Source: Candidatus Omnitrophota bacterium
GTDB taxonomy: Bacteria; Omnitrophota; Omnitrophia; Omnitrophales; Aquincolibacteriaceae
Direction: 5' to 3'
Assembly (NCBI GenBank): GCA_016930235.1
Contig: JAFGHI010000030.1
Span: 1-43,833, forward strand
Length of the DNA stretch: 43,833 nucleotides
The position numbers and the translations under genes are program-made. Below, piece by piece: positions 3,306 to 31,500 of the stretch. Within the stretch, counting starts at the first letter, position 1, and the number at the start of each line of letters is the position of its first letter. Under the pieces are notes generated by a model. The model did not search any database. It worked only from the letters and a program-made list of their open reading frames with translations, and had not been told where the DNA came from.

Positions 3306-4703
3306 ATGCCTAAGACCTTATTCGAAAAAATATGGGACAAACACGTCGTAACGACGCTTGCGGACGGGACTTCTGTTATTTATATCGACAGGCATCTGAT
3401 TCATGAGGTGACGAGTCCTCAGGCGTTTGAAGGTCTCCGCCTGGCCGGCCGAAAGGTCCGAAAACCGGAGCTTACCTTTGCGACGATGGACCATAATGTC
3501 CCGACCGATAACCGCCATATTATTGCGGATGCCATCTCACGTGCCCAGGTCGAGACTTTGACTCAAAATTGCCGGGAATTCGGGATCGAACTTTATGATT
3601 TAAAGAGCGACCGGAACGGGATCGTTCATATTATTGGGCCGGAGTTGGGGATCACCTTGCCGGGTCTGACCATGGTTTGCGGAGATTCCCACACAGCAAC
3701 TCACGGCGCTTTTGGGACCTTTGCGATGGGGATCGGGACTTCGGAAGTGGAACATGTCTTGGCGACGCAATGTCTCCTCATGAAAAAACCGAAGACTTTC
3801 AAAGTTGAATTCATCGGACGTCCGATGAATTGTGTGACAGCGAAGGATCTCATCCTGAAGTTGATCGGAGAAATCGGAACGGCCGGCGGAACCGGCTATG
3901 TCTTGGAATATGCCGGGGAGGCGATTCGCTCGCTTTCGATGGAAGGGCGGATGACGATCTGCAATATGAGTATTGAAGCAGGAGCACGAGCAGGTTTGAT
4001 GGCACCCGATGAAATAACTTTTCAATACATTCAAGCTGGAGATCGCCCCTTTGCGCCTAAAGGCGGGGATTTAGAGAAGGCCATATCTTATTGGAAGACG
4101 TTGCCATCCGATCCTGATGCGAAATTTGATCGTGAGATCACAATCGATGCCTCCCAGGTTGTTCCACAGGTGACCTGGGGGACAAGTCCCGGAATGGTGA
4201 CGGGTGTGGATGGAGTGGTTCCGTCACCGGAGGAAGTCAAGGGCTACAGCGCGAAGGATGTCGAAGCGGCCCTTCATTATATGGGCTTGAAACCGGGGAT
4301 GAAGATTACGGATATTAAGATTGATACCGTTTTTATCGGAAGCTGCACGAATGGGCGGATTGAAGATTTGAGGGCTGCGGCAAAGTTCTTAAAGGGCCGC
4401 AAAGTGGCTAAGGGCGTACGCGTCCTTGTCGTGCCGGGTTCACAATCGGTGAAAAAGGCAGCTGAGGGTGAAGGTTTGGATAAGATTTATAAAGAAGCGG
4501 GGGCCGAATGGCGGGAATCAGGGTGCAGTATGTGTCTGGCCATGAATCCGGATCAATTGAAGCCGGAAGAAAGATGTGCATCGACCTCGAATCGGAATTT
4601 TGAAGGACGCCAGGGGAAGGGCGGACGGACTCATTTGGTGAGTCCCGAGATGGCGGGAGCAGCGGCAGTTGCAGGCCATTTCGTCGATATCCGTAAAACT
4701 TAA
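3306..4703 (+). CDS. leuC: 3-isopropylmalate dehydratase large subunit
   Basis: 465 aa: aconitase-family motifs '[32 protein letters not shown]', '[17 protein letters not shown]', '[12 protein letters not shown]', '[31 protein letters not shown]'. Confidence 0.97.
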
Positions 4704-4837
4704 CCGCTCGCCCCGTAGAACGGGGCTCGCCCACCGCGGCGGTGTCCTTTTCCTCATGAGAAAAAAGGACACCGCCGCGGTGGGCGAAGCCTCGCCGGAG
4801 TCCGCAGGACGGAGGCGGGCGAAGCGGTCAAAGGAGT
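4704..4837. repeat. Compound palindromic element between leuC and leuD
   Basis: Perfect 24-bp arms 4728-4751 / 4763-4786 (cgcccaccgcggcggtgtcctttt / aaaaggacaccgccgcggtgggcg). Flanked by ccccgtagaacgggg and gcctcgccggagtccgcaggacggaggc hairpins. Outer arms are accgctcgcc and ggcgggcgaagcggt. Confidence 0.85.
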
Positions 4838-4842
4838 TTGAA

Positions 4843-5481
4843 ATGGAAGTTTTTAAAACACATCGGGGGATTGTGGCAACACTCGACAGGGCCAATGTCG
4901 ATACGGATGCGATTATCCCTAAACAGTTTTTAAAGTCCATCAAGCGCACAGGATTCGGAGAGCATCTTTTCAGTGATTGGCGGTACCTCGAAGACGGCAA
5001 CCCCAATCCCGAATTTTCACTCAACCGCAAAGAATTCAAAGGCGCTTCGATTTTAGTCGTAAGAAATAATTTCGGATGCGGCTCAAGCCGCGAACATGCG
5101 GTTTGGGCGGTGCGTCAGTACGGATTCCGCGTTGTTGTTGCCCCCTGGAAGATGGAGGGCAAGACCCAAGTCCCGGCCTTTGCGGATATCTTTAAGAATA
5201 ATTGCGTCAAGAATTCTGTTTTAACGATTGAACTGGCCGAAGAAGAAGTCGAGATCATCTTTCAGCTCGTTTCAAAAAATCCCGGTGTCCAAGCGACCGT
5301 GAATTTGGAAAAGGAAAGGTTCTATCTGCATTATAACAAGGAAATGACCTTTGCCTTTGACGTGGACCCGTCTGTGAAGAGCCGTCTTCTCAGCGGATTG
5401 GATGATATTGGACTCACCCTGCAGAAAGAAAAAGAGATTTCGGATTTCGAAACCCGACACGACCCGCAAATCCAAAGATAA
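4843..5481 (+). CDS. leuD: 3-isopropylmalate dehydratase small subunit
   Basis: 'MEVFKTHRGIVATLDRANVDTDAIIPKQFLKSIKRTGFGEHLFSDWRY...NFGCGSSREHAVWAVRQYGFRVVVAP'. Start reassigned from the track's 4669 to ATG 4843, which follows aaaggag. Confidence 0.96.
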   Translation: MEVFKTHRGIVATLDRANVDTDAIIPKQFLKSIKRTGFGEHLFSDWRYLEDGNPNPEFSLNRKEFKGASILVVRNNFGCGSSREHAVWAVRQYGFRVVVAPWKMEGKTQVPAFADIFKNNCVKNSVLTIELAEEEVEIIFQLVSKNPGVQATVNLEKERFYLHYNKEMTFAFDVDPSVKSRLLSGLDDIGLTLQKEKEISDFETRHDPQIQR

Positions 5482-5847: not shown

Positions 5848-5955
5848 ATGCAAAAAGGCTTTAAAAAAGCGAAAGGCATATTTTCGTCGGTTACATGTCT
5901 ACTTTTTTTAATTACGAATCTATGCAACCCTTTACCCCCGAAGACAGCCTACGCT
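5848..5955 (+). other. Predicted N-terminal signal peptide of the giant ORF
   Basis: Basic start (KKAKG), hydrophobic core (SVTCLLFLITNLC), then AYA|ND as a plausible signal-peptidase site. Confidence 0.7.
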
Positions 5956-8900
5956 AACGACCAAGAAGCCTCATTCCTCACAGAACAACATCTGGGCGGT
6001 TTTGAGATACCGGCAGAGTGGGGCCGCGTGACAGAAATCATGAAGTCCGCCGAGACGGACTCTCTTATCCTTCATATCCAAACCTCTCACCGCCATTATG
6101 AAGCCCAAAAAAATATCCAGGCCATCCTTAAATATCTTTCTGAAAGATATGGGGTCCATCAACTCTTTTTGGAAGGAGGCTGGGACAAACTCGAGCCCGA
6201 GCTTCTGAGATTGACTCCTGAAGACGAAGAAACAAATCTCCGCATTACCGATGCCCTTTTGAAGGCGGGCGAAATTACCGGGGCCGAGGCCTTCCTGATC
6301 GATAACGAATCACCCGCTGATGGCTGGGGCATCGAAGATTATGAAGCCTATGCTGCCAATGGCGCTGTCTTTAAGGAAATCATACGGCAAGAACCGTTGA
6401 TTGAAAAAGGTCTCACGCAGGTTAAAGCGGCTTGGGAAAAAGAGGCCGCAAAATATTTTTCTAAACAGCTCCGGGATTTTATCCGCAGGGAAGAAGCCTT
6501 CCTGGCCAACCAAATCTCCATGAGTGATTGGTTGGATCACTTAACGCAGGAAGCCAGAACCTGTCTCCACCTGGATTTGGAAAATGTCTGGCATCAAGCA
6601 ACGTGGCCGATACTCGTACGTTACGCAAGACTTAAGAAAGTCGGAGAGTTATTCAACGAAGAAAAGATCCGGGAAGAATCGGAAGATTTTATTATAGCAT
6701 TACGGCGTCTTCAGATATCCGAGGAGATTGTCAAATCCATTCAAGAGACCTTAGGATCGGAACTGAATCAAGGAAATAGAGCTCAAGCCCGCGGAATCTT
6801 GAGATCCCGAACCCAAGACGGGGAAGAGATACCCGCTTCAGCGACACGTTTCCTCTTTGAACGGTTGTTTGATGTCCTGCCCGAAGACTTCTCAATGGAA
6901 TTATTCCCCAATCTCAAACTTTTCATTCAGCAGCTTGTCCTCATAAGCGAGCTTGAAGGCGAAAAACTGGAAGAGGAAACGCTGCGGCTCACATCCTGGA
7001 TCACCGAAGCGCTGGCTGACGGGGAAAGGGACAAGGAGCTCGTCCGGATGCTCGAGGCCATCAGGCATTTTGAGAAACTCTTTTCGCTTGAACTCACCCG
7101 CAAGGAATATCTCAACGCTTTTACGAGCCGCGGAGAGGATCCATTCAATCGTTTGTGGGAAGAAATTTTCAGCGGTCAGAAATTGAAGGCGAAAGACAAA
7201 GCATTGAAGGAAGGACTTCAAGCGCTTTACGCCAAGGCCGTCCAGTTTTATGAAGGGGCCGTCCGCCGCGAAAAATGGATGGCCGAAAATACGCTCTCTC
7301 ATCTCCGGCAGCTGGAGAATCGAAAAGCGGTTCTCATTACCGGCGGTTTTCACGCGGAGGGCCTTAAAGATGCGATCCTGAATCAAGGGGTTTCCTACGT
7401 CCAGATCACACCGCGCGTGACCGACATTCCCCAAAACACGCGGGAACTTTACCTTCAAATGGTTTTGGGCGAGTACCTGCCTTCTAATTCCAAATACGAG
7501 GCTGCCTTGAGATTACAAATGCAGGATTGGCCTGGGATGGAAAGCGATAGCTGGCCGGGCCCTTCTCAACAGAATGTCGCCCGGCATATGCTGGATATTG
7601 CAGGCCTTCAATTGAATGGCGATGCAGAGCTTGACCGGCAGTTAAAGACATCGCGTCTCGCTCAGCTGGCCGGATTACGCTCTGAACGGCGAACCGTTCG
7701 GTCTGAAGATTTGAATCCCCCGAATCGCTGGCAGGGTCATCGGTGGGATGATTGGGATGCAGATCACCTTGTCCAAACGGTCCAATCGGACACCGCCGGG
7801 AATTATGAAATTACGATTGATGAAGCCGAAGAAATTTTGCGACTTGTCCGGCAAATTCAAGGTCCTGAGCAGCCAAATCCACGCCTTGTAGTTGAAGCCT
7901 GGAAAAGCGGGCATGCCCTTACGATCGAAGAGGCAGTCGAGATGAGTCATTTCTCCAATCGGATGAATGGTACGGGTACCGTTGATTTGGATAAATGGCG
8001 GGATCAGATTGTCCAAAGAAGTAAAGACAAGAAGGGTAAAGTTAAACCGCTCAGCAGGGAAGAAGCTTTCCAAATCTTGAAGCAGATCGCGGAAATTCGT
8101 CTGATGAATGCCGATACGCGGCTTCTACCGATGCCGCTTCTGATCGATGCCTTTTTTGCTTTCGGTTCAGTGAAAAAGTTGAGGGAGATGCTCTTTGACG
8201 TGGCCTTTGACTACGTTCCGGAACCAACAGGGAAAACAGCTTCGCGCCGGGGCAGCAACCAAAAAGCTGCCGTGCAAATGAATTTGAGTGGTCTTATAGA
8301 AGCGGCCAAAGGGGAGAATCCGAAGGTGATAGATTGGGATTGGGGTTTTAAGGCCCTTGATCGGTATTATGAGCAGCATCGAATTCATGTGAGCGCGGCA
8401 AGACAGCGGAAAACAAAGTCTGAGCTGCGCTTGTCTCCAACCGAGACAAGCACTGCTCGGGACTCGATGCAACCGCCGAGTGGAACATCAAGTTCCACCG
8501 GCGTAGTACCTGCACACGAAGTACAGGTGGGGCCATCTCGCTCCGAGCCGCACCAATTTCCGACCGAAATTGGTACTGCTCAGTCCTTTGGGCCGACCGC
8601 CCAAAGGGCCGAGCTGCGGGAAGTAAGTTCCGCTTGGCTCCTGGCTGCCGCCTCGGTTTTCGTCATTGGTTTGGATATCTCCTGGCGGATACAGTTAAGG
8701 CGGAGGGTGACTCAAATTTGGGAAGGGCATGTTAAGCGGGAGCTTTCCGATCCGGATTATTTTAAAGGGCCGGGAGCCAATGAGATGTTTTTTGTCAACG
8801 AATCGCGTAAGTGGACGCGTAGACTCGTAAAGGCCATTTATTCCACGACACATGATTGGAAAGCATCTCTCGTTTCATTGGATGAATTGTTGTCGAGAAT

Positions 8901-11900
8901 CCCGCAGGTTTCGGTTTCGCTTATCCGCCGCAATCGCCGGAGCGGAAAGAATGAACATTGGTATATTACCGTTCCCGATTCGGTTGAGTTAAAGCGGTTA
9001 GCCGAAGATTCTTCAAGATTACGGTCAATCATCATTTCTCATTCCGAATTAAGGACGGAGGATGAATATTTTCGTCAATTGGTGGATGAACATCTCGAGG
9101 GGATCAGGGGTGTTTACGAGAAATTCGAAGAACGTCTTGATTCGATTGCCGGGCAACATGGCATTGACAAACTCGGATTGCGCTATGCGGTCTTGTTGGA
9201 TGTGATGAGATATAACACCCTTTTTTACGGGGATATTCTGGAAGGCCCGGGTTATTCCGGACTTTCCAGAGACGACCGTGCATTTCTTTTTGGGATCATT
9301 TTGACTATTTGGCAGATGGTTTATGATGAAATCCGGCAGTTATGGACGGAATTAAGCCGGGAATCGAATCCTTTTGAAAGATTGGCTCAGGTCCTTGACG
9401 AGACGGGGGAATTCCGCGCTGCGCTTCGGGTGAATCATCAAGAGGCGCTTAATTTAGTTATTCATGCGTTGGAAAATTCGGGTTTCGTTACCGGATCGGG
9501 AAAACAAACTGCCTCGGATTGGGTGGATTATATTATCGCCAGCGCCGCGAGATTTGAGGAAGGCCGCGTTGGGGATATGAATCAAACCCGGGAAAACATT
9601 CTTCTTCTTAAGGCCTTATTTGATGCCAAATTTCATTATTATCACCAGTTAAACAGGTATCGGGATAAAAGCATATCGAGGACAGGGGGCCGGGTTTCGA
9701 TAAGTGCGTTTGTGGAAGCGCTTCTGCGGCATGACGGGGAATTTCTGCGTGCAATAGATCGGGACGATCAGCCGCCCCGCTCCGAGCTGCGTACCTTAGG
9801 CTGGGAATGGGGATTGGCATTGGGTGCGGTTGTTTTGGGGGGTGTGTTTTATGCTTTGAATGTTTATTTGAAACGCGCTGAGTTTTTTGAACGAGTTGAA
9901 CAGATCTGGGTGGAATCCATCCGGGGAGTTTTGAAAGAATCTCATCATCCGGTCGAGCCGGGGCATGAGGATCAAATTCAGGATGATTCATGGGTCGACC
10001 GGCACGAATCCCGAAGGTTGTTGATGGAGCTTGCCGGGGTTTTAAGGAAGAAATTCCGCAATGATCCGAAGGCCATCGAAATCTTAAACAGGATTGCGCG
10101 GCAGATTTCAGATTACACAGAACCCATTGTGATGCGGGAAGGTGACAGGACGCCTCTTTACCATTTTAATCTTCCCGATCCCCGTCAACTGAAAATCATG
10201 CTCGAACAGCCGGCCAGACTCAATGAATGGATCCTGAACGCGAAAAGTAATTTTGCGCCCGACGAAATCGAGGCAACCCGATTCCAAAGGTCTGAGTTGC
10301 GCACAGGCGACATCGTTTTCCACGCTGAACCAAGTCCCTTATTGCCCGCTATCGAAAAATTTTATGGACAATTTCAGCAGACCATCGGGTGGATGCTCGA
10401 AGGACAGCTTTCGGGTGTTAAGGAACACCGGCTTGTTCGGGACATGTTAACCGACATGGCGCAATTTCATCAGAGCGAACGCAAGTGGCTTCGAGGCGGA
10501 GATTTCAAAAAACTCACATCCGAAGAAGAGGCCTTTCTCTTTTTCTCTTACCTGCTCCCTCTTTGGCGGATAATCCATCAAGAGTTGGAGCAAGTTTTCC
10601 TGGAATATGAGAAGGGTAAGCAGCCTGTCAGCGGGTTTTATGCGTATTTGACCCAAACACCGCGGGAGATCAGCGGGCGCATTTGGCAGCGGCATCGGGA
10701 ACCGTTTGGGAGGGCGGTGCAGTTAATCGGACAACATGCCGCAATCCGGTGGGCGGATGATCGGCGCCTCGGGGCTGATTTTATTGACCGTGTGATTGAC
10801 CGGCTCGTTCAATCTACGGCCGGGGTAGTTCAAAGTTTGGAACAAGAAAACAACCGATACGCCGCTATGGCGATTTTGAACTATCTTTTTAGGAGCAGGC
10901 AATTATTTTACAAGGAGTTTTCCGATTATGTCGCCGATTATGCGAAAAAGAACCTTCGGTCCCTTAGGCCCCGGCATGTAAATGAAAATCGTAATTTATT
11001 TTATCAAGCGCTCGAACAATACGAAGATACGCTCCTGCGATCAGAATTGCGGAAAGGCGTGCGCTCCAAGACGACGGTTCAAGGGGAACTGCGCGAGGTT
11101 GAAACGGCAATCAACGGAATTTCCCGCGCCTTGAGTGATCCGGAAGATGGACTTGATGAGGAAATTGCAAATCGGACTTTGACAGAACTCAACACACAAA
11201 AGGATCGTTTACTTGAAGAATTGCGGGATTTGGAATCCCGTTCCGAGCTCCGTCACGATCCGGTTTTGGAATGGCCGATGACCGATCCTAATCGAGATTT
11301 TAATCAAATGCTTACGGATTTTACTTTTTACGCTGCCAGGCAATATCACGATGGAAGCGCAAGATTAATGACGAGTCCTTCGATGATGGGTATCCAATAC
11401 AAGCGCGAGCAATCCTACGACAGCGTTTTAATTCGGCATAATCCGCAGGAGAATGAACTCGTTGTTGTCGGCAAAACGAGTCGCATTGATGAGCCCGATG
11501 CGGTTTTGAAATATGTACAAATCGTTTTTTCTGATGAGGATCTTCGTGTTTATCAGGGCCAGGCGGGTGAAGAGCATGGGGAAGTTGCTTCGGGTTCTTC
11601 AGAAGAGACCAGGATCATTGCGGAGCCTTTAAATGGTATTCGCTATCAAAGCGGTCGATTTGAACTGGTCGTAAGTCCACAGGCTTTTAGCTTCCTTAAA
11701 GCTCAAGAAGTGATGATAACCGGATTGACTTATGTGGAAAAGACGTCCGAAACGGAAATTCGCCCGCGCTCGGAACTTCATGAATCCATCTCGCCGGTAT
11801 TGGGATGGGGCGGAACCGTAAGTATCCTTTTAGGCGCCGGATTGTTTCTCGTGACGCTGGGAGGTTTGGCGGCAGTCTTCTTATTCCGGCGATGGAAGGC

Positions 11901-14900
11901 CAACGGACGGTATGACAATTATCCGGGTGTCAAATCCCATGTGCTGGCAGCCGTGAAAGCGGATCTTCGGGTTGATTTTTCTTCAGGGAAAAGGGAGATG
12001 ACCGAAGAGAAAATGGGCGGAGACGTTATTGACATTGATTATGATGACGAATTTTCAATCGACTGGGCCGCGTTACCGACGCCTCTTCTTCAAGATCTAT
12101 ATCGGCAGCTTGCTGAACAAAGGCGCCCTAAGATTGAGTTTGTATCGGGCGGGCCGCACGTGATTGTCAACCATGTTGAGCATCGCTTCTCGATGAATCG
12201 TGGCAAGAGGCTGCCGTCCCGCGTGATAGCGAAAAAGACTTTCGAGATCCGTTCTCCCCGTTCCGAGCTAAGGGCGGGATCTGTTTCACCCCGCGACTTT
12301 TTCGGTGAGGCGTTCGGTGATTGGGATAATCTTGTGCAAAGGATTCAAAGAAGTGAAATCACGTATGCTGCGATTAAACCCCTCGGACACTTCCCCGAAG
12401 AGGTGCAACTTGCGATCCGTTATCAAATTATCAGGACTTTTGTCCAGGCAGGATTTCTTGTCCATATTGGGAGACCGATTCGATTGACTCGCGAAGAAGC
12501 GGAAAAATTTTATACGGTTCATCAAGGAAAGCCTTTTTTTGATGCATTGGTTGATTATGTCTCAAGCGATGTCTATGTCCCGCTTCTTTTGGAGAAAAAG
12601 GATGGTCCTGAAATTATTGATCATGCCCGCGAAACGATTGTCGAAATCCGAAGAAAGGCACAGGCCTCTGAGTTAGTTCGAGGTGCTGAACTTATTCCAC
12701 AAGGTGTCGAGACGAGGGTTTACACGCAAAATCTTATTCACGGCAGCGATTCACCTGAGAATGCGATTTATGAGGTGGGTGTGATTTTGTCCACAGAAGG
12801 TGCGCGTTCGGAAATGCGGGGAATGACGGACCACGTGCAACGGACCACGGACCGTGAAAATTTACTCCTCACCCCAACCCTCTCCCCAGCGGGGAGAAGG
12901 CAGGGTGAGGGGGCGATCCACCTGGGTCATGGGTCTTGGGACCTGGGTCTTGAACGATCTGAGTCAAGAACGCCTTCCAGTGCACATTGGAGCTTGGCGG
13001 ATCCAGAATTTCCCCGTGGTGGTGTCATCCTGACCGATAACTATATCCGCTCCGATATGAAAACCTATTCCTTGCCGCATCACAGGAAGATTGCGGTTCT
13101 GGAAAGACAGGAAGGAGATCATCTGCCTTATGCAGGAAAATTTGTGACGGCGATCCAGCAAGCCGAGTTGGTAAACGAAGTTAATATCATCAGCCTTCAG
13201 ACATCCGGGAGTGTGCGGCAGACACTCGAAAACCTGCTGAGCGGATTCGAGCCTGATCTCGTTCTGGTACCGGTCTCCTCCGGCTGGCCGGAAAATGAAG
13301 TCGCTTCCTGGATTCATGATTATGTCCAGGTGCGCGGGAGCCCGCTTGAGGTGCTTCTTTATCCTGTTCCTCTTGAAAAGAATGATCAGTTTTTTTATAC
13401 GCCCATTTTAGAATATGACTTCGAAAAGATTATCCTGCCCGCAGTCAAAGTCCATCATACACAAAATCGAAGAACTCAATATGTGCCGGCCGTACGGCAT
13501 CTCCTGCGATTTTTGGCGGCCCGCGCCAATGCGGAACGCCGAGATGGGCCGTTGAGTACTCCCGTTGCCAATGCCTTTGCGGTGGAACTTATCCGTAAAG
13601 GGGAGGTCCAACGTGTCTTGTCTAATCGTAACCAAATGGCAGAACTGGACAAACTTGTTCCGCTTATTGTGATTTCGCCTCATCCGGATGATGATGTGAT
13701 CGCGGCCGGGGGATTGATCCGCAATATTTTAGCGACGACCGGCGTTGAGAACTGGGTTTTAGGAAGAGGGTATACCGGGGTAACGGGCGTCGGGGATTTG
13801 ACACCCGAAGAAATAGCCTGGGGGATGAGAGAACTGCAACAGATTTTCAAACCCGGCGGTGATTTCTACGACAAAACCGGTTTCGTTCCGGATCTTTACG
13901 GGCGAGTCTTAAAAGAAACGCCTGAGAGTCCAAGTCAGGAAGTGCGGTCGATTGTCGAGTACCAAGTGGATCTCCTGGGCCATTTGCCTGCTGTCCAGGT
14001 AAAAATTAACCAATGGGAACTAGGGGACAACGTCCAACCTGTTTTTGGGGAATTGGTTAAGCGGATTATTCGAAGGAAAGAGGTTGAAGAGGCTTCGCGG
14101 ATTTTATCGCGGGATTTGGAACGCCATGTATCGGTGAGATGGTTTGATCTTCATTCAGTGGCTTTTCCGCATGGTCTGGCTCCCCGGGTGCCCGATTGGA
14201 TGGTTCAGCAGGATGAAGTTGTTATTCTCGAAGAGTTCCAGCATTTTTTCAACGAACATCGTCAGCAAATTATGGCGTCCCAGACCCACGGGGTTCCCTG
14301 GAGTATTGTCGTTCCCCATCCCGAAGACCAGCATCCCCATCACAAGACGACGTCTCAAATCGTGATGACGGTGTTACAGGATTTATCCAGGCGCGAGGGG
14401 ATTGAGATTCAATTGATTGAATACCAGTCGCCCTGGGCCGGCGGGTTTGACACCTATTTTGTGACAGATACCGAGATCCCATCCGAAGCTGTTTCTCCTG
14501 ATTCCGGATTAGATCGTTCCGAAGAACTGTCGGCGATGGAGCAGTATCAACGGGCCTTAACCTTTCTTGTCGGAGAATTGGCGGGTCGGTCTTTTGGTTT
14601 GAGTTCACCGACGCCCGAACAATTAGGCGGCCGTTTTACGGAGAGTTTTAAACGACTGGTTTTTGAGCCGGTCCGCTCGGAGCTTCGTAATGATTTTCAA
14701 AAAAGAGCGGGTGATCTCCTTAACGCTTTGGAAGGATTTGACACAGCGGTTCAAACGGCTTTTAAGGCTGTCGCTAAAGATGTGCAGAAAATTGATGAAG
14801 AAGGTAGTCGCTTTCAAGTGACGCTGGGCGGTTTTCTTGGGTCTCTTGAGCGCGTCAAAGATTTGCTGCGGGCCGAAGATCTAGACCGGAAGGTGTTCCT

Positions 14901-17900
14901 AGATGCTCACGCGGCTTTGGAAAAAATTCAATCCGGGATGAAAGAGTTAATCGGAGGTTACAATCCCAAGAGGGCATCGCTCGGCGAAGTCCGGACTGCC
15001 GGCAATCAACTTGACGGAATTATTAAAGAACTTGCGGCATTTCTGGGGGTAACAAAGAAACCTGCTGCCAAAACCGTTCAACCGAAAACCGAACCGCCCA
15101 CTGAAAAAGTTGAAGGCACCGTGACGCCCCGTGAAAGTCATCGGCCGTCGATCGAGGTTAAAAAACATCAGGGGGTTGACGGTTTTGGTGCCGTATCAGC
15201 GCCGCCGGCTGAGTTTTTCGAACTTGCCAGCGGGCTCAAGCAAAGCGTTTTATCCGAGATGCTTTTGGATCCTGAGATCAATGCTATCGGGAAGGTAAAG
15301 GGCCCGGCTGCGGAGCTTGAAAAAGTAAAGGGCAGTATTATTTGGGTCGAATTGGGTTCCGAACCGGAGACGGTGGCCAAGCTTGTCATCAACGGTTTAA
15401 GGTCCGGTAAAGAAGATAAGTTACCGGTCAAGTATGGCTTTTTAATCGTTTCCTATCGCGCCGCTCCCGGATCGCCCGAAGCCAAGATGATCGTCCTTGT
15501 GCCTGAGACCGTTCCGGCAGAGAGCCCGCGGTCCGAACGGCGTGTGAAGGTTGAGGAATTGAATCGTCATTTGCGGGAACATAAAGCTCTCGACGGTATT
15601 GTTGTAGCATTACATCATTCCTATCGTGTTCGAGCGAAATGGGTTAACGCCCCGGCCGGCTCCAATGTCAAAGGTTACTATGTTTTTCTCTCACAACCTG
15701 CGGATTGGGATGAAGGCCTTGAAGAAAGGTCCGCACCGGTTCAAATGTATCTGGCCACAGAAGGAGAAATGCAGCAATATGAGTGGGAGATCCAACATCT
15801 TATGGACGAATCTTGGACGGCTCAGGAACGGAAAGGGGTTTATCTGCCGTCTGATTATTTTCTGTCCAGGAAGAAGAAAAAGAAAGTGGATCTAGCCTTA
15901 AAAAGCGAAGACGTTTTCAAGAAGGCGGCCAAAGCCATGGCGTTATTCACCAGCCACCACCAGATCGTGATGGATATCCGTGCCGCGGTTTTCTCTGAAC
16001 TCGGGGACTTCCAGTATGGTGCTGAAATTAAACCGTCTCAACAAAGCGATTTTGGTCCGCCCGCAAGTCAGGCACCTCAAAATATGATAAAGCTCCTTCA
16101 ATATGTGAAGGATCATCAATATGAAATTCTCGTTGGAGTGCAGGATATTGATCGATCAATGGGGCGGATACGATTGGTTCTAGGTGGTTCGGATGAAAAA
16201 ATCGGCAGTGTTGAAGAAGATGTAAAGACCGATTTGCCTGGATTGTCATTCCAAAAAGCAAAGGTGATTAAAGAATATCCTTCCGGGGGCAGACAGGTTC
16301 AACTTGGAAGAAAGGTGGTTATTCTTCGTGATTTTCATCAATTGAATGCGCTTTATCAAATTCTCGTCAAGCGTTTCCGTCCTGAATGGTGGAAGGGGGA
16401 TTATCTCGTGAGTGTGGCTGAAATCGAACGCGCCCTGGATCAGATGCAAGGGGCAAGGGGCAAGGGGCAAGGACGCTCCGAGCTTCGCGATGATAACCAA
16501 TATGTCGCCCGGGGAAACGGAACGATTCGTCTGGTACCGAGCGAGGGGAACAAAGCCGAGATTCATATCGTCCAGAATGATGTCAGGCAATTTACCTTTG
16601 AAATGATGTCCGGATCGGCGCAAACCGTGGTCGATAGCATTTTGTCCGGCATAGGATCTCAAGCGATTGAGGCCGTCTGGATTGGCAGTAGCGGCCACCT
16701 TATGGTTAGTGTCGGGGATTTTAACCGTTTTGTGGTTGATCCGGTTTTGGGGACGGTCGAGTTCAAACGGAACTATGTCTCAGCAGCTAGCGGTGTAATC
16801 GATCTCAAGGTGGAGCGGCGACATCTTGATCATCTAGCGGTTACCGTCAATGGGGGGCAATTTTTTACGCATACGGTTAAGAGCGCAGTAATCACTCTTA
16901 CGGCGATTGAATCCGTCAAAGGCGAAAGCGGTTATGACGCGGTCTGGCAGGATGCGAACGGTAATCTTATCATTCTATTAACGAATGGTTATCGGGTGCG
17001 GGTGGACGCAACAACCGACGAAGTTTCTGCTATGCCAGCAACAGGCTTGGACGAACTCCAGCCTTTAAAGGAAATGGGCCCTTCGCAAACAGGGACATCC
17101 GAATGGGAAGGCGAAGGAGAACAATTTCTGGTTACCTCCCGTCAGGGTGAGATTACCATTGAGACGACGGATTCGATTTTTACCGTTGCAGTTAATTTAA
17201 ACGGGAAATCAGAATTTGGCTGGGCGTTCGCGAAACCGGCTGCTCAGGTTGTGGATGAAATTAATGATGTCCGAGCTCAGTTTGGAAGTCCTATCGGATA
17301 TAAGGCTGTCTGGGGGGATAAGAGAAATCGTGATCTTGTCATTGAGCTCGATGACGGCCGGATGATCCGGGTGAAAGATCAATCGGGTGAGATATGGGTT
17401 CGCCGCGCAGATGCCGGCGAAGGGACCATTGTACTCGAGTCGACTGGAAATTACGGGGTAACTGTTCTTTTGGACGGTAACTATCGTGCTGAACTTGAAT
17501 ATCAACATGGTGCCAGAAGGTCTGCGGAAAGCCTTCGGGAACATCAGGGTACATCTCGGATTGCTTCTGTTTGGTCAAATCTGGATACAGGTGTCCATAT
17601 TTTTTACCTCGATGATGGAAGAATGCTGACAGCTGACAACCAAACCAGTGAAGTTACGGTCACTGGTGTCAAAACCGCTGGTGAAGCCCGACCGGCGGAT
17701 TCTGTTTTGTCCAAACTTCCTCCCGGTGCCGAGAAAGTCGTTGATAACGAAAACGGTTTTATCGTTTTAGAAGTCAGTAGATACGGTAATATCCTTGTTT
17801 ATGCGGGTAATCGAGATCGTGCCTACGAAATCCCAACCGCTAAAGATACCGGTCATGCATATCGGGAAGTCCACCGGCTTCAAAGAGGGGCAGACATTTC

Positions 17901-20900
17901 TTCCATCTGGAAGAATCCAGAAACATGGGACCATTTTATTGTTTTAAGTGATGGCCGGGTGATCCAAATGAATTATGCTACTCATGAAGTGACTTTTATG
18001 AGTGCTGATACTGCCCCGGGAAATTTGCCGGGCGCGACAAAGATTGCCGACTCAAACGATGGTGAGATCATGCTTTCCGCAGCGAGTACGGCGCTTGGAT
18101 TGTTAGTTAATGACGCAGTAAAAGAAACCTTCTTTATTGTTAATCCTCTGATTGTGGCACAAACATTTAATAGTTTACGCAGAGGCAGTTCGATCAAATC
18201 CGTTTGGGGTACAAGCGAGGAGCTTTTCTTTAATTTAGATGATAAAAGGGTGATTGTTATTGTCAGAGAAAACGGCAATATTTATGTCGAAGGTGAAGAA
18301 CCTGTTTCAAGTTCATCGACGGCAGTTAAAGAACATCCCAATGCCGACAAAGTAGCAGATTGGGGAAATGGCGTGATTGCATTAAGAAGGAATATCCTCG
18401 ATGAAATCATGGTTTATGAAGGCGATCGAAGAGTCTCCATCGTTCATATCCCCAGCAGTTCATCGGAACAAGTATGGAATCAAATCCGAAGGCTCAGGGC
18501 ATCCACGGAAATCGTCGCGGTCTGGCGGGAACAGACTTCGCTCGATTGCCTAATTGACTTAAGTGACGGAAGGACGATACGCATCGAGGACGAGACCGGT
18601 CGTATCGGTGTGGAAGGCGGAGATGCCACAACGCCTGCGCCGGCAGCCCTGGTCCCGCCGGCTTCTTCTTTTATCCCTCAGGAGGCCGTCTTGGTCGTGG
18701 ATTCAACGGAGGGAGGTATAGCCTTAGAAGTTACTTTAGACGGGGATATTGATATTTACATCGGTGGTCAGGTGGATAGAGACAGAAGGATTGATAATAC
18801 GACTTTAAGCAAGGCTAAAGAAATTATCGAGAAGTTAGGTGATCATACAATCACTGCGATTTGGTTAAAGAAAAGCGAGTCAAATTATTATTTGGATAAG
18901 GCCTATTATTTCGTTTTAGATAACGGACAAACGGTTGTTTTTAACGGTCGAACGGGTGAGGTATCGATCGAAGGTGTCGGAGCCGCTCCGGCTGGAGCTG
19001 ACGTGACAGCCAAAGAACACCCTGGATCAAGCAGGGTAGCGGATCAAAAAAATGGCGAGATTACAATCCGGTGGGATACAGATGATCAACTGGAAGTATT
19101 GGAGGGGAGAAGTCTCGCTCATACCATCTTTTTACACGATTTCGTAGCGGATCGAGTTCTGTCACAGATCCAGGGATTACAGGGCTCAAGCCGTGTCGTT
19201 GCCGTTTGGGAAGAAATTTCCACGCTGGACACTCTTATCGATCTAAGTGACGGAAGGACCCTCCGAATCAATGAGATTAATAGCCGAGTCACGGTTGAAG
19301 GAGAGCCGGTTGTCGCTTCGGCTGCTAGGGCAGGCAGTAGTCAATTAGCCGCGGCCAGTGCGGATGAGATGCTGGAAATGGAACAGGAGGCGATTGATGC
19401 TAAATCCAAAGCTGAGCCGGTTGCTTTTCAGGTTACTGTGGACGAAATACGGGAACGAGGAGTGGATGTTGTTCTTAGAGGCGAAGACCGTTCCGAAGTC
19501 AAAGGTTTTATTTTCGCGGATCAGTTAGATCAAGATCTCTCACGTTATTGGTGGGGCAATACCATTTCTCCCGTTTATCTCGTCTCTTATAAATATAGAA
19601 AACCCGAGCACCAAAGAAAATCTGCTCTATTTACGATGCGGTACGACCGTGCCTTGCGTGAGCGGCAATCAGGGACCCGTCAGCGGATGACTCGTCCCGA
19701 AGCACTGGAATATGTTCAAGACGCCTTTCAAAATGGTACGACGGTTGAGGCTGTTGTTCTAGGGGCATCCAGCAAGGGGACCGGCATCAATTTTATGATC
19801 GGCGGTGTTTTGAGGGCGTTTATGCGCGACCGATACGCTCGACCAAGATCCGGCGAGGTGAAAGAACTTCATGTTGTGAAAGTTGATGTTCAAAGCGGGG
19901 ACGATGTCTATGTCGAATTAGGTGAGACGGATCATCAATTGAGAAGAGGCAGGTCTGATTACCGGCGCTATATGCCCGAAGTGGATCAAGAAACGGCCAT
20001 GTCGGAATTAGAAGATGCTTTGCAGCGGGGAACAACGGTTTCAATCAGGGCAGGCCGTCCCAATGAGCGTAGAACAGGACTTAATGGTACGTACAGGGGA
20101 GCGGTTCATGTTTTCTATAGGGATGCACAAGCGGCGGCTGAGTGGTCCCGACAAACACCTGAGCAGGATATCGATGGTCTTTATGTTGTCCAAAAAGTAG
20201 AGAAAGGGCCAGACTCCTTTTATATCTTGCAGCGCAATCGGCCATCAGCTTCGGGTCCAAGATCTCAGCGCAGTATGGGAAGGTCAGGCAGCGGCGGGTT
20301 GTTCACTAGCAGTGGCCCGGCCGGCCTCTCACCGTATCGTAGAAAGGGTGGGCGGACTCCCAAAAAAAGCAAACGGCCCGGCCGCGGCGGATTGGATGGC
20401 GGCCGGCGACGTTCGGAGCTTCGTATCTGGAAAAATGGGGCGCTTGGGGAGGATCAATTAGAGATTTATTCCACGCGTGCTCACTGGGAAGGCGCCGAGA
20501 AGATGGCGGTTCCCCGCGAAATAATCCTTCACTCAGGCCGGGGTGAATTTGTTTTGCTTAACTTGAAGGCAGCGGGGCGGGCGGAAGATCAGCCAAGCCA
20601 CAATGTTTTAACCTATTCCATGGTTGCTGCCAACAGCTTGCCTTCGTTATGGGAAGAAGGTCTCCAAGTTGGCAATTTCAAGGTTGAAATTGATCAGGAA
20701 GGCCGTCCTGTCAGTCAGGGCATTCGGATTGAGATTTTTAGTGATGTCCAAGATCAATACGCGTACTTGGGAGAGTCTCTATCGCAATGGATCAATGCTG
20801 CAACGAATGGCGGCGAATTTCCTTTTACGCTTCAAAATTCCAGATTTGTCACGTTCTTGACCACCAACGTGCTGCCGACCATTAATCCTCTTGAGCAGCC

Positions 20901-23900
20901 AGATCAGGGGAATGATCTTGTAGTTGATCATGTCTCGTTAGTCAACTATGCCGATGATTTGGTTCGTAAACAAGCGGAAGCGGTTTTGGTCCACAGTGCG
21001 ACCGGCGGGTTTGGTGCTCGGGGAATGACACCTGCCTTGGCTCAATCGATTATCGAAAGCGAAACCCGGGCCATGAAGGAAGTTGGATTAACCGTTTATG
21101 CCAATGTTACACCCACGCGTTCTCGAGGGTACGAAGAAGATTATGAGAAAAATAAAGGTGAAGCCATTCAGGAAATGCTGCAGAATGCCGGGATTGCTGA
21201 AAATGCAGGCGCTGATGCGCTTGTTTTGGCGCCTCTTACCTTCTTAAGGTCCAGCGAAGAGATCACGGAAGTTGTCAATCTTTTGGTTGAAGCCACAGAT
21301 CTTCCTGTTGTTTTCTACGATAATCCGGGTCTTCACTTGATCCCGGGTCGGGATATCGACGCAGCTGTTGTCGAAAGTTTGTGGCGGTCCGGTCAAATCG
21401 CGGCGATTAAGGTTAGTACAGACCAATTTGAGATTGTGGAGGGGTATCTCCGGACAGGCATTCGTGTTTATATCGGGAATGAAGGTCTGATTGCCCGTGC
21501 CATGGAAAAGGGCGCCATTGGTTCTGTGGGTTCGACTGGAAATATTCTTTCCCTTCTGCAGGATTTACCCGTCACGAGAAATCTCGATAATCTTCAGTAT
21601 TTGCAACGTATCGTGGATGACCTTCGGGGACCGTTGACGGTGGATCAAACAAAGATTACGGCAGCTATCCTTTATGTTTTAGCGAAAGAAGGAATTGTTC
21701 AGAATGTCCTTCTTCCGGGCGTCCCAACGCTTGAAGATACGGAAAAACAAGCTATTGACGAAGCCCTTGTCAAAGTCAATCGATTGGAGGCTGGAAAGAA
21801 CGCAGGTATTGCTCAAGCGGCGCTTGAAAAAAAGGTTGTCGACCGTTTCATAGAAGATCCATTAGGTTATGTGAAATGGTTAAGAGATGAGGCTGATGAT
21901 GCGACTTTGACTCTTGCGATCAATCACATTGAAGGGGTGCTGACAGTTGAAGGGAATCGCAGGATTTTGGAAAAGCGGGGTGTTTTAGAGGAGATCGAAA
22001 CGGTCCTCGATGAAATTTTTGCCGCCCATGAATGGCCGGAGGAGGCTTTTCAAGTCGGGGAAGGGGTTGTAGACGCTGCTCAAGCGGATTTGCAAAGAGC
22101 CCGGCAGATATTGGTCGAACAAGTTGTTCGAAAGTTGTCTGACGACCGCCATGCCGAAATGCTGAACCGGTTTTATGAGGAAGGTGTTTGGAGGTCTCTT
22201 TTGGCAAATGTCGCTGAAGCGATGGCGGCGGTTCCCCGTCATCTGTATGCCTCTCGCTTTAACGGAGCTAATGCGTACGAAAATGACATCGTCTATATCG
22301 GACGCAGACAGACGATTTCCCAGCCGTCGTTAATAGCGATGATCCTTTTGTTCCTTCATTTGAAGGGTGATGAAAAGGTTCTAGAGGTCGGCGGCGGATC
22401 GGGATGGCTGGCATCTCTTTTGGGGCAGTTGACGGAAGAGGTTTATTCGACGGAAATTATTGAGCTGCTTCGCAAGCGCGCCGAGCGGACGGTTCAAAAA
22501 ATGGGAATTCAAAATGTCCATATACTTCAAGCCCGGCCGGACGTGCTCGGTTATCCGGATGCAGGACCTTATGATGTGATTGTCGTTTCAGCGGGGAGTT
22601 CTCGCGCGACGGTCCCTGACGAGCTTGCCAATCAGCTCGCTGAGGGCGGGAAATTGCTGATTCCGTTATTGGATGAAGATGCACAGGCCTTGAGGGAACG
22701 CGAGAATGCAAAAAGACTTTATTCGCTTAAAGTTTTTGTCAAAAGAAATGGTGTGTTGGTGGATATTTTTGATATGAAAGCAATGGGGTATCCTGTTTCC
22801 TTTGTGCCGCTTATCTTGCCCGAGCGCGCAGAGTTACGCGCGATCAACATCAAGTCAGAGACTTCGAAATCTGCCAATCAGTTAGTGATTGAAGTTGGTG
22901 GCAAGAAAAAAAGTGGGCGTCATATGAGAACAGTTCCTCGCTCATTTACTTTCCCGGTTTGGAGGGATGCCGCTCAACTTGTGAATGAAATTGAGGCGAT
23001 TGCTGCCACGGGAAACCGGCATTATACGGGCGTTATTATTAATTCCGAGCGTGGGCATCTTGTAACGCAATTATCGGAAGAGGCAACAACCCTTGGTACT
23101 AAAGGCTGGCATAAGGACGGCATTTTTAGTGATCTTGAGAGCGGAGATCTTGTGATTCAGTTATCCGATGGGGCATCGATCCTTGTTTCGGGTATGGATA
23201 ACTATGCTATGGAGATTCCACCCGCCGGTATGACGCGGGAAATAAAAATGAGACGAAGGGTCAAGTTGAATGGATTGGTCCCCAGCATTCTGTCGGTCAG
23301 TGCCGAGGGTGTGGTTCAAGGGAACCTGCTTGTTGAGCGCTCTTCGTCCGAAATCATTCGTGAAATCGAAGGCCTGATAGGCGAGCAGTTTTGGACGGGT
23401 GAGCGGTTTTTTGTATCGGCGGAGGTTTCGCCTCAAGAAGATGTTTTAGAATTGGTTTTGAATGACGGCCAGAAGGTGGTGGTAACGGAAGATGGTAAGC
23501 GTGTCACGATCGAAGAAGGCGGGCGTATTGCCGACCCGTTTTTGCTTCGGTCCGTCGTCCGGCTTGTCGAAGAGTGGGAAGATTACGGACAGGTTCAGAT
23601 CAATGCCAGTGTCTTGGCGGCGGAGATGGGGATCAGTTCGGATCTTACGGTGACGGACCGGGATGTTGTTCGTGCGATTCATCTTTATAATCAAAGTGGT
23701 TCCGAATACGTTTTGGTTGATTTACCCACCGAAATAGGAAGTACCTTCCAAATCTTACCGCGTTCGGAATATGAAAAGGTGGTTCCTCCCGAAGACCGCT
23801 CAGAACTGCGGTCAGTAACGGACCACGCAGAACGAACCATGGACCACGGGAATTTATCCCTCACCCCGACCCTCTCCCCGGCGGGGAGAGCCCGCCTGCC

Positions 23901-26900
23901 AGCAGTCGGGCAGGGTGAGGGGGCGAGTGACGTGGTTCGTGGTCCTTGGTCCGTGGTCCAAGCTCGCTCCGAGCTTCGCAGGAGTGGGCATCACTATGAG
24001 ACTATTCAAGGCAATATCTGGGTGAATCGGGAAATGAGTGAATTTCCGGATAAGCCCGAATTGAGTGAATTTGTGATTAGTAACGGACCTGAAATTAACT
24101 ATGCCAATGTTGACGCAAATTTCCGCGTTCGTGTTCTATATTGGGATTATCAACGCGCAATTGTTCAAGTGAAAGTCCCGGGAGGCGAGTGGTCCGAGGA
24201 GATCCAATTGTATATGCAGACGGGCCGGCATGCGATTTCAGGGACAATTCTCATGGAACTTCGCGGCTTCGGGAAATTCGAGAGGCCCGAATTCGGCTTT
24301 TATGTGCCCGGGGAGTCAAGGGTTTTGAGGCGGAGAGAATTTGACCGCGGAGTTCAGCGGCGCTCTGAGCTGCGTGATGATTTTGTGCCGTATGTAAATG
24401 AGGGACAATATACGCCTAACCTTAAAGGGTGGTTAAAATTAGGGGTGGATGGAAAAGAGGGTGGACTTTACGAATTTAGCGAGTTCGTCATATCGGTGGA
24501 GGGTGAGCTCGCTGATTTCGATGATCTTGACCGGAATATCCGGATCCAAGTAACTGATTTTTCAAAGGCGGAAAAATGGGTGGAGTTCCTATGGAAATAT
24601 CCGGGCCGGGGTTGGTCGCAGCCCGTAAAAATACGGATGGAATCGGATGAATTTCATATCACGCGGAATGCGATCATAAGATTTAGCAGTTTTGATCGGG
24701 AAGGTTTTCCGGGTTTTGCTTTTCGTGATATCAAGCGAAAACATGAAATCTTAAGGCGCCGGGCCTATGAGGAGATTAAAACAGGATTAGTTGTCAGCTA
24801 TCCCGGCGAAGAGATTGATCTCAAACATCCGGAAAATAATTTGCATTTAGAGATTGCGGATGCAGATGCAGACCAAGGAAGAGCTATGATCAAGTACCAC
24901 TCCCGAGGAGCGAACAGATGGACACGACCCCGAGATCTCAAGACAGATGCGATTATCAAAATCGACGGTTTGATTTCTGTGACCTATCGCGGTTTGGATA
25001 AAGAGGGAAAACCCCAATTTGAGTTTGAGCCCGACAATGTCAAAGTGATGCCCGGTCTGGAATACCGCCAGATCAGACAATCCGCCTACCGGCGCTCGCC
25101 ATCAAAAAGTGAGCTACGGATCGAGATCCCTGAAATCGTGGAAGTCATCAAAGACCTAATTAAAGAAACAGATGGAGAAAGGCAGATTCGTATTACGAAT
25201 GGGATTGTGGCGAACAGGCTTAATATCTCAGAGTCGGCGGTTACCACTTTGATGTTAGAAAAGGCCATCGGGCAATTCAATGAGTCAGATGGCACGCATT
25301 TTCTGGAGCCGATTCGCACGGAGATTGGGCATACGTATCTCGTCGAAACCCGTTCTGAATTGCGGGGCGAGTGGTTTAATTTGTCCGTTGATCTTCGAAA
25401 TGGCCGGGCTCTTGAAAATTATAGTGAATTGGTCATTTCCACAACAGGGAGAGTTGATGTGACGGATGTCGATCGGAATATCCGCGTTGAGGTGGTTGAA
25501 AGCGATTGGCAGCGGGAATGGGTGACCATTCGCGTCAAATTACCGGGCGGTGAATGGTCTGAAGCGATTACTTTATTTCGAGGCGATACTTATCCGTTAA
25601 CGAAGAGTGTGGATATTCAGCTTTTTACCTTTAACGGAAGTCGCGAACCTCGCCTGGGAGTTACGAGATTACCTCATGTTGGAGTCCTTCGCCGGCGGCT
25701 TTTTAACCGTGATCATAGAAGATGGCTTGAGCAGCAACCGGCGGTAAGAATAAGAGCCGAATTGCGCTTGTCTCCAACCGAGACAAACACTGCTCGGGCC
25801 TCGGCGCAATCGCCGGGTGGAACATCAAGTTCCACCGGCGTAGTACCTGCACACGAAGTGCAGGTAACGATGCCTCGCTCCGAGCTGCGGAGCAGAAACT
25901 GGGTTAATCTTCCCCTTGATGTTGAAAAAGGAAACCCCGAAATGGGCGAATTTGTGCTGAGTATGCCGGTGCTGGATATGCCCGGCAGCACGATGGATTA
26001 TTCCCGCGTTGACAATAATATTAGGTTACAGATCACGGCCTTTTCGATGAAAGGAGCCTGGATTGAATTCAGGTATAAACTGCCCGGGCGTCATGCAAAA
26101 TGGTCAAAGAACTATCGATTGCAGATGGGAGATGGACTTTATCCGATCACCGAAAGTGTTGAGTTTGAGTTGGGCTCGTTTACGGAGGAGGGTATCCCGG
26201 TCATTGGTTTTTTTGCTCCTCGCAGCGTTCGAATTTTCACAAGGCAAAATTATGACACATCCAATCGGCAGAAAACCGTCTGGTTTACTTTACGGGCGGA
26301 TACATGGGCCGGTAATCTTACGGAGGATCTAAGCGGATTTGTCATCAATAAAGAAGGAGAGGTTGACCAAACCGATATCAATAATAATGTCCGGGTCCAG
26401 GTCATTGACAAGGATGTTAAAAAGCAAACGGTCACGATTACGGTTGCTTATCCGGGAGAACAGAAAATCCGGACGGTTTTGCTTCGAAGGCACGAAGAAT
26501 ATCCGGTTTTCCTAAACTTTTCTATCCGGTTCCATTACTTTGACGATGACGGCACGCCTTATTTCGATTTTACTAAAGACACGGGTTATAAAGTTCTTCG
26601 CAGAAGCGTTTATGGAAGGGGTCCTGTTGTGCAGCATTCTGAATTGCGGGAAAAACGTGTCGCACTTCAGGGGGCACAGGGAATGCCTGAATTAGTCGAA
26701 TCATTTTTGCCGGAAGATGCGCAGAATGCGGTGTATGGTTACCGTGAAATTGGACGGGTAGGGGAGACAGGTATTTTTGCCTTTGCTGTCAAGGTGATGG
26801 ATGGCATCCTGCCTTTATCGTTACACGGGCTGGCGGCTGCCGGTCCGTTCTTTACAGAACTTCTAAGTTTGAATGGGTTGGCCATGGCGGCTCCGGGCCA

Positions 26901-28529: not shown

Positions 28530-31500
28530 ATGTCAGAAATCAAAAGACAGCATAAAGATTTATTGACGGTTGCGGGAGTTCGTGCCTTTGTCAAGGATAT
28601 CTGCAAACAAGCCGTGCGGCCGGTCAATGTTTATCATTTAATGGTCAATTCGCAGTTTCAATTTAAACAGGCCCAGGCGGTTATCCCTTATCTGAAATCT
28701 CTGGGGATCGACACCCTTTATCTTTCACCTTTCTTTCAGGCTGTGCCGGGTTCTTTACATGGCTACAATTGCACCGACCCCAATCAAATCAATTCGGAGA
28801 TCGGAACCGTTGAGGAATTCTATCGGTTTTCGGAAACTTTGAAACAGCATGGGATGCATCTGGTGGCCGATGTGGTCCCCAACCATATGGGGATTTCGGG
28901 TAACGGGAACAGCTGGTGGCTGGACGTCCTCGAAAACGGCCCGAGTTCGGTGTATGCCCCTTTTTTTGATATCGACTGGGACCCGGAGAAAAAGGAATTA
29001 AAAGATAAGGTCCTGCTGCCGGTCTTGGGGGATCATTACGGCAAGATTCTCGAAGAGGGTGAAATACGGCTGGAATTTAATTCTAGAGAGTTCAAACTAC
29101 GGTATTGGGACCATTTGTTTCCCGTAGCGCCCGGGACGTATCCTCAGGTCCTGGAATACGGGACCCAGGAGCTTCAGGATTCGCTGGGGACTGAGGACAA
29201 GGATTATCTGGAATATTTAAGCGTGATCACGGCTTTCCGGAATCTTCCCGCCCGCACGACCCAGCATCCCGAAAAGATCGATGAACGCAACCGTGAAAAA
29301 GAGATCGCCAAGGACCGCCTGGAAAATCTCGTCAACAAATCAGAGGCGGTCCGCAATTTTCTGGAAGGCCGCGTCCGGCTCTTTAACGGCGAGAAAGGCC
29401 ATCCGAGAAGCTTTGATCTTCTGGATGAACTTGTCAATGTCCAGCCTTACCGGTTGGCCCACTGGCGCGTGGCCTCCGAGGAGATTAATTATCGCCGCTT
29501 CTTTGACATCAATGAATTGGCCGCTATCCGCATCGAGGATTCGCGAGTTTTTAATACCCATCATCGTTTGTTGTTTGAGCTTGTCCATGACGGGAAAATC
29601 CAAGGTTTAAGGATCGACCATCCCGACGGACTTTATGATCCCCCGGTCTACTTTCAGAAACTTCAGCGGACGTTTCTTTGGAAGGCTCTAGAAAAGGAAT
29701 ATGAACGAATTTATCAAAAAGAATTGCTTAAGGATTCCGAGGAAGCCAAGGTGCTCGATCACTACCTTGAACGCGTTCTTCATGAGAAGAAGATGCTTGA
29801 GGCCAAACCGCTTTATGTGGTGGCCGAGAAGATCCTAGACCGTAAAGAATCGCTTCCGAAGGACTGGAATATTCACGGGACGGTCGGATATGAATATTTG
29901 AATGCCTTGAACGGGGTCTTTGTGGACCGGGAGAATGCCCAAAAATTTCAGGAAATTTACGAGGAATTTTCGGGGCTCAAAATCGACTTTGATCAGCTTG
30001 TTTATGAAAAAAAGAAATTCTTTGCTCTTGTCCATATGTCGAGTGAAATCAATACGTTAGCGCACCGTCTTGATCAAATATCCGAGACGGACCGTCGTTA
30101 CCGTGACTTTACCCGTAATCACTTGGCGGTGGCGATTCGTGAAGTGATCGCCTGTTTTCCGGTTTACCGGACTTATATTTCACCGGATGTGACCCAGATT
30201 TCCGAACGCGATGAAAAGTATATTCATATCGCGATCGAAAAGGCCAAAAGGAAGACACCCGCGCTTTCGAATGCCCTTTATGATTTTTTAAGGGATGTCC
30301 TGATTCTCAAAATTGTCCCGGAGATGTTTTCCGATGAAGAAAGGATGTACCGCGATTTCGTTTTACGGTTCCAGCAGTTAACGGGGCCTGTGATGGCCAA
30401 AGGCCTGGAAGACACCTGTTTTTATATTTACAACCGTTTGATTTCCTTAAATGAAGTTGGCGGCGATCCGCTTCACTTTGGGATGTCCGCGGGGGATTTT
30501 CACCGACAAAATCAGGAAAGGCAGAGAAAATGGCCCGAGAGTTTTATCACATCTTCGACACATGATACGAAACGAAGCGAAGATGTCCGGATGCGGATCA
30601 ATGTCTTGAGTGAGATTCCGGAGGAGTGGAAGGCCACCTTGACGAAGTGGGCCGTTACGAACGAGAAGCACAAGACCAAGATTGGCGGGTCTCTGGAGCC
30701 CGACCGGAATGTAGAATATTTTATTTACCAGACGCTGGTGGGTGTGTGGCCGATCGAGGGTGTGTGTCCCGAAGCGGAAGAGGCCTTTAAGGAAAGGATC
30801 TGGATTTATATGGAGAAGGCCCTTCGGGAAGCCAAAGGGAAAACCAACTGGATTAATTCCAATACCGAATACGAAGAGGCCGTCAAAAAGTTTGTTTACG
30901 GGATCCTGGGGCGTGGGGAAGGGAATTTTTTTCTCGAGGTTTTCCTTCCATTCCAGCAGCGGATCTCGATGGCGGGGATGCTCGGTTTGTTATCCGCCCT
31001 GTGTTTAAAATTCGGTTCCCCGGGTGCGATTGATACTTTTCAGGGGACAGAGTCGTGGAATCTCCGCCTTGTCGATCCCGACAACCGGTATCCGGTGGAT
31101 TTTGGAGGTTGCGAGGCTAAACTCAATCAAATCTTGGCATCGATGAGTTCTTCTGCCTCTCGTGAGGAGGCATTAGGCGCGTTTCTATCCAAGTGGGAGG
31201 ATCATGGGATCAAACTCTGGTTGCTTCGTGAGGGTTTGGGACTTCGCCGCAAAATGGCGGAGCTTTTGATCGAAGGAGATTATCTTCCTCTGAAGATAAG
31301 CGGCAAAAAAGATAAACACATTGTGGCTTATCTTCGAAGGATGAAAGGGCAATGCGTCATTTTTGCCGCGATGCGGTTTTTTATGGAAGCTTTGACGGAA
31401 GGGGGCGCCTTGACGCCCCATCGCGAGTGGTGGCAGGATACGGTCCTTGTTTTGCCTCAGGATATTTCCGAAAATTGCCTGGAAGATTATTTATTGCAGA

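Follow-up and report, generated by a model that had tools for sequence, protein, structure and literature searches.

A recurrent pentapeptide delimits the units of giant proteins in a Candidatus Omnitrophota bacterium

The stretch of DNA analysed here (the window) comprises 43,833 nucleotides, positions 1 to 43,833 of contig JAFGHI010000030.1 in the assembly GCA_016930235.1 of a Candidatus Omnitrophota bacterium, and contains a single giant open reading frame (ORF), 5848-27399 on the forward strand, encoding a protein of 7,183 amino acids (aa) in which the pentapeptide RSELR recurs. Exact RSELR occurs 13 times, always in frame, at 9778-9792, 10288-10302, 11038-11052, 11239-11253, 12259-12273, 14674-14688, 16474-16488, 20410-20424, 23797-23811, 23965-23979, 24361-24375, 25351 and 25876-25890, compared with a mean of 0.03 and a maximum of 1 after shuffling of the protein. 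The exact copies are accompanied by about 13 variants, namely RSERR (7678-7692 and 15529-15543), KSELR (8416-8430 and 25105-25119), RAELR (8605-8619, 22825-22839 and 25753), HSELR (9040-9054 and 26635-26649), RSELH (11767-11781), RSEMR (12805-12819) and the weak matches RSEPH (8539-8553) and RSESR (12955-12969). An earlier reading of the sequence alone (the original prediction) had listed these copies, and all of them are indeed present and in frame in the one ORF; only the RSESR at 12955 had been overlooked.

The encoded protein begins with a Sec-type signal peptide (5848-5955, putatively cleaved after TAYA), followed by a domain common to the giants discussed below, which weakly resembles the Tiki and ChaN proteins (5956-7494), and then proceeds through a series of units. 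The nucleoside diphosphate kinase (NDK) unit (12274-12804) spans 177 residues from the RSELR at 12259 to the RSEMR at 12805 and aligns over the greater part of a solved NDK, with the HGSDS signature kept; NDK is universal, and a search of genome contigs with this unit returned nothing but conventional NDK genes from other phyla. Pfam further identifies a PIG-L deacetylase-like domain (14065-14373), a dihydrodipicolinate synthase-like domain (DHDPS, 21163-21708) and a protein-L-isoaspartate methyltransferase domain (PCMT, 22150-22704), with the RAELR at 22825 located 41 residues past the latter. The unit that precedes the RSELR at 14674 is also found in the related genome G016, where it ends at RSEMR. 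Near the C-terminus, the RSELR at 24361 separates paralogous beta units, a predicted beta-strand unit (25351-25767) has RSELR (25351) and RAELR (25753) as its ends, and the last delimiter, HSELR at 26635, is followed by a C-terminal unit (26650-27396) with the terminus -TTSA. Some of the segments between motifs are short stretches that resemble translated interspersed DNA repeats (8416-8619, 12820-12960, 23812-23964 and 25768-25875; LTPTLSPAGR, GTSSSTGVVPAHEVQV), and comparable inserts (LTLSPEGRG, LQAS..LQ, PESRDSGTP) separate some of the motifs of this genome's other giants. Directly after three of the motifs, including the RAELR at 8605, there are hydrophobic stretches resembling membrane helices (8620-8700, 9793-9870 and 11782-11870).

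The motif recurs across the genome to which the window belongs (G000; 2.3 Mb in 63 contigs, 90% completeness), where a degenerate DNA pattern, CGNTCNGARCTNCGN, has 68 clustered matches versus 6 for the reversed control. The stretches around these matches yield 15 giant ORFs or contig-end ORF pieces, 75,888 aa in total and up to 12,231 aa in length, which contain 128 exact RSELR compared with 0.24 expected by composition (an expectation that, here and below, ignores local sequence structure). Among 204 other ORFs of the genome (150 + 54; 64,649 aa), there is not a single RSELR. Four variants, RAELR (27), RSEQR (18), RSELH (14) and KSELR (10), also exceed chance in this genome. The limit of the motif is sharp at five residues, with information of 3.3-4.0 bits inside, a range fixed by the search itself, and of no more than 0.35 bits at the free positions outside. 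Three further ORFs of the genome with the common N-terminal domain run off contig ends, and each contains the motif or a variant. In one of the giants (L027:4571-20000), the coding sequence passes into a second, overlapping frame at about 10,807-10,840, through either an assembly error or a real frameshift. Among the papers searched, none describes the motif in such proteins.

The motif is a delimiter located at the borders of the units. Apart from the four enzyme-like domains of the window, the Pfam domains identified in other giants include GH77 and GDE_C, phosphorylase and DUF3417, starch synthase, PPDK, PEP-utilizers, phosphofructokinase, phosphoglucomutase, phosphotransacetylase, both domains of alanine dehydrogenase and inositol phosphatase, along with sigma-70 region 4 and the RNA polymerase alpha C-terminal domain. 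None of the motifs falls inside the 27 Pfam domains, compared with 14.8 expected (0 of 10000 random placements), and the NDK, alanine dehydrogenase, GH77 plus GDE_C and phosphorylase units sit between motifs, with the domain partners kept together. The same picture emerges from giants of 18 related genomes, selected for their length (for the most part one or two from each genome) and compared with each other and with those of G000 by BLAST, in which otherwise different giants have units in common. Every motif was masked before the search, so that the motif itself is excluded as the cause of the BLAST borders. The 53 intervals common between genomes contain 2 motifs versus 34.0 expected, and 36 of the 99 interval ends have a motif no more than 20 aa away versus 8.3 expected (0 of 5000 random placements in each case). 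The suggestion that the motif marks domain borders, and that an excess at borders would be found in related genomes, is thus borne out.

The segments adjoining the motif are depleted of hydrophobic residues (24-26% vs 34%), and a structure predicted for the beta-strand unit at 25351-25767, from an alignment of six paralogous units of the window, places the motif outside the fold. The mean predicted local distance difference test (pLDDT) score is 85, with most of the core above 90, and falls below 50 in residues 1-5 (RSELR) and in most of the final RAELR. In this predicted unit, then, the motif appears to lie in an exposed, disordered linker. In a fold search, the beta unit had no significant match among solved structures, and its weak matches were to phage proteins, most of them unnamed. 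Taken over the borders, the Pfam domains and this one predicted unit, a recurrent short site is found confined to the borders of folded units, as in a polyprotein.

The variation of synonymous codons among the copies, which the original prediction described correctly, had been taken as an argument for conservation of the peptide and against recent copying of a DNA repeat. The first part of this argument holds: third positions vary at each of the five codons, with 93 distinct 15-mers among the 128 exact RSELR copies, and the DNA flanking the copies carries 0.06 bits per base. A plain interspersed repeat that happens to be coding is rejected because there is no similarity beyond the five codons. 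The second part fares less well: Ser in the motif is encoded by TCN in 134 of 137 copies in G000 (98%) versus 74% in control dipeptides, and in 248 of 258 copies in the relatives versus 60%, whereas the first Arg is encoded by CGY in 79% versus 40% in control dipeptides. These biased codons indicate that the copies share DNA ancestry or retain a nucleotide constraint. Conceivably, the motif could be read as DNA or RNA, being a recombination site or an mRNA element that is only incidentally translated, and the position-specific bias, with CGY at the first Arg and not at the last one (34%), is in line with this. Such a role is highly improbable given that all five codons vary at the third base and that position 4 changes the amino acid between genomes, so that no fixed nucleotide word is left, and given the lack of signal in the flanks. 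The common ancestry of the copies would also fit an inert joint, that is, a seed sequence copied with each duplication or fusion of a unit into linkers that are merely tolerated, as would the clustering of the repeat-like inserts between motifs, but the silent flanks and the variable third positions point to purifying selection acting on the peptide.

The comparison of related genomes bears on the same question. The most enriched pentamer in the sampled giants is RSELR in G014 and G028, RSEVR in G016 and G012, RSEAR/RAEVR in G038, RAEVR in G025 and G030, RSETR in G007, RSEMR in G011, RSEAR in G010 and RPELR in G005; the reversed-motif control is low in the relatives overall but reaches 13 in G038, where the A-E-A pattern is palindromic. 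The R[SA]E[LVAMT]R type is found in four families, and A-x-S-L-G or GxSLG in others: the giants of family f7 (G036) lack R[SA]E[LVAMT]R types and contain 26 A-x-S-L-G versus 0.57 expected, with border-like spacing, G035 of family f4 contains 7 versus 0.26 expected, and one giant of family f5 (G027) contains GASLG 13 times and GRSLG 6 times. For families f2 and f10 and for other classes, the samples of giants were small and showed no clear pentamer. A giant of family f8 (L199, from G047) is enriched in LSDSR (9 copies), which does not belong to the R[SA]E[LVAMT]R type and is possibly a third type of delimiter. All giants of one genome use one spelling, with the overlap of position-4 letters between giants being 0.74 within a genome versus 0.33 between genomes (0 of 2000 label shuffles), and the relatives keep the unit borders while the spelling changes; for example, one unit is bounded by RSELR on both sides in G014 and by RSEAR on both sides in G038, at 38% identity. 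Loss of the motif in orthologs, which had been proposed as grounds for refutation, is therefore too simple a test, since relatives respell the motif genome by genome. An inert joint would not be respelled in concert across a genome, nor would AxSLG take over from it at comparable sites of another family, and we consider this origin of the motif quite unlikely. The genome-wide agreement in spelling is best read as the mark of a trans-acting recognizer, although it could be due in part to the copying of motif DNA inside a genome.

The agreement in spelling is also compatible with co-evolution with a binding partner. In the docking scenario, one adaptor or scaffold would bind each linker, so that the giant, left uncut, would be fixed in its arrangement or kept at the cell surface. 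This fits the exposed position of the linkers, to which short binding motifs are suited, and the surface location envisaged for giant ORFs of Omnitrophota (PMC10066038). It is harder to reconcile with the indiscriminate use of the motif, which delimits units of all sizes and kinds alike, in some cases with only 6-13 aa between two motifs, and with the cytoplasmic-type enzyme units, which are easier to explain if released. Docking, although the main rival of cleavage, thus appears rather improbable.

In G000, all 8 complete N-termini with the N-terminal domain open with a stretch resembling a signal peptide, in which there is an AxA-type site, and continue with the domain. Judging by this layout, the giants are probably exported. 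Most complete giants of the class terminate in a small residue followed by alanine (-[small]A). A profile of the N-terminal domain, with its invariant IQ[DT][AS]H, EG, FY..R and GGFH, is positive in 39 of 39 genomes of the order, with 3-49 copies in nearly every one (1 in the fragmented G032), in 49 of 49 genomes of the class and, beyond the class, in about 36 of 96 genomes sampled from the rest of the phylum. The domain is often located at the start of ORFs of great length, the longest of 15,709 aa. An IMG/VR contig (L179:1567-7887) encodes a 2,106-aa protein in which a signal peptide and this N-terminal domain are accompanied by weak similarity to M90 peptidase, next to ParB/methylase-like and terminase-like genes, that is, a protein of the giant kind in a predicted (pro)phage.

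A strict five-residue word that is confined to borders, exposed, present genome-wide and drifting in spelling suggests the target of one trans-acting factor. We therefore favor, with a probability of roughly 0.6, the possibility that the giants are exported polyproteins in which the motif is cut or recognized by such a factor. Each giant would be translated as a continuous chain, in which a Sec-type signal peptide and the constant N-terminal domain precede a varying succession of units, many of them enzyme-like, and a short C-terminal tail ending in alanine, and the RSELR in the exposed linkers would be the recognition and cleavage site. The factor is probably a protease, the simplest case, by which the units would be released once exported, and motif and factor would drift together, because one factor must serve more than 100 sites, so that each genome would acquire its own spelling. 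The notion of a processing, sorting or docking signal is thereby narrowed, with peptide conservation, border position, linker location and recurrence in relatives jointly pointing to processing or recognition. The search for new N-termini by tryptic proteomics would be confounded at the motif because trypsin cuts at both motif Arg residues.

Several observations weigh against this reading. No common known processing protease was found: C11 is present in 0 of 48 genomes, C14 in 3, S8 in 10, S41 in 19 and S1 in 27, and C14, S8, S41 and S1 are all absent from G000, at its 90% completeness; C25 was detected in 0 of 48 genomes, but the C25 control was silent as well. The classical extracellular processing peptidases searched for, being absent or patchy across these genomes, are thus unsupported as a universal processor. 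An exported NDK or phosphofructokinase has no obvious job outside the cytoplasm, and the codon memory at Ser and the first Arg leaves room for a role at the DNA level. Furthermore, the match of the N-terminal domain to PF04187 is weak (E=0.007, 16.8 bits, below the cut-off of 27.7), and an AlphaFold2 model of this domain, built from two sequences only, is unusable (pLDDT 39).

Nevertheless, the presence of the N-terminal domain in every class genome examined, along with the weak Tiki similarity and the His/Glu spacing, makes it a candidate processor, and no more; its identity as the processing factor is speculative. H47, E75 and H468 are invariant, the latter in GGFH, and the His-to-Glu spacing is 28, as in Bcr135 and RRSP, but the Glu two residues before the first His is replaced by D or T in the giants. 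The Tiki superfamily includes RRSP, which is a sequence-specific endopeptidase (PMC6254334). The resemblance to Tiki, EreA and ChaN is one of sequence, and all the matches are below the Pfam cut-offs, including those to PF18950 and PF05139 (E 0.05-0.09), which we take to be members of the PF04187 clan. A PDB profile search with the domain returned only chance matches and hence no solved relative by sequence, and an NCBIfam search gave nothing useful. A broader scenario, in which a large part of the protein exported by the entire class would consist of self-processing polyproteins, with an N-terminal Tiki-like protease in each giant that cuts at the pentapeptide, lineage-specific cleavage codes (RSELR, RSEVR, RSEAR, AxSLG) and many enzymes released outside the cell, is tentative and, at present, more doubtful than not.

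Elsewhere in the window, aconitase is encoded in two overlapping ORFs (3306-5481; main domain 3306-4703, C-terminal domain 4669-5481), which reflects either a natural split or a frameshift, and near the giant gene there are two overlapping ORFs (28530-33466), each with a partial alpha-amylase domain.

The genome-wide delimiter code is observed; site-specific processing, the mechanism that we propose for it, is a known principle. The gingipain precursors RgpA and Kgp of Porphyromonas gingivalis are exported, multi-domain proteins processed at multiple sites, and in this respect resemble the giants, in which cutting is putative and read from the sequence; gingipains have few sites in two proteins, an internal caspase-like protease and a type IX secretion system (T9SS) C-terminal domain (PMC10319874). 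Here, in contrast, the sites number more than 100 in a genome and are spread over 15 or more giants or giant pieces, and the Pfam matches of the giants scanned include neither a C25 nor a T9SS domain. The MARTX toxins are giant modular proteins, the middle units of which are freed by site-specific proteolysis; repeats form their two ends, and they contain a cysteine protease domain that is activated by inositol phosphate and cuts after Leu (PMC2900308). Neither RTX-type end repeats nor a cysteine protease domain had a Pfam match in the scanned giants, which differ from MARTX also in their ordinary-enzyme-like units and in the use of one pentapeptide as the common delimiter. The giant ORFs of Omnitrophota have been described as very long, with few recognized domains, in small genomes, and considered extracellular; the part of that report considered here discusses adhesion-type domains and mentions no delimiter, common N-terminal domain or enzyme units (PMC10066038).

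Giant ORFs of uncultured bacteria encode some of the longest known proteins, and little is understood of what these proteins do. With a delimiter readable from the sequence, such giants can be divided into units that are amenable to separate annotation, expression and testing. If the delimiter is a cleavage code, bacteria would process polyproteins on a scale that is otherwise familiar to us from viruses and certain eukaryotic precursors alone, and the genome-specific spellings would amount to a natural experiment on how a recognizer co-evolves with more than 100 targets of its own.

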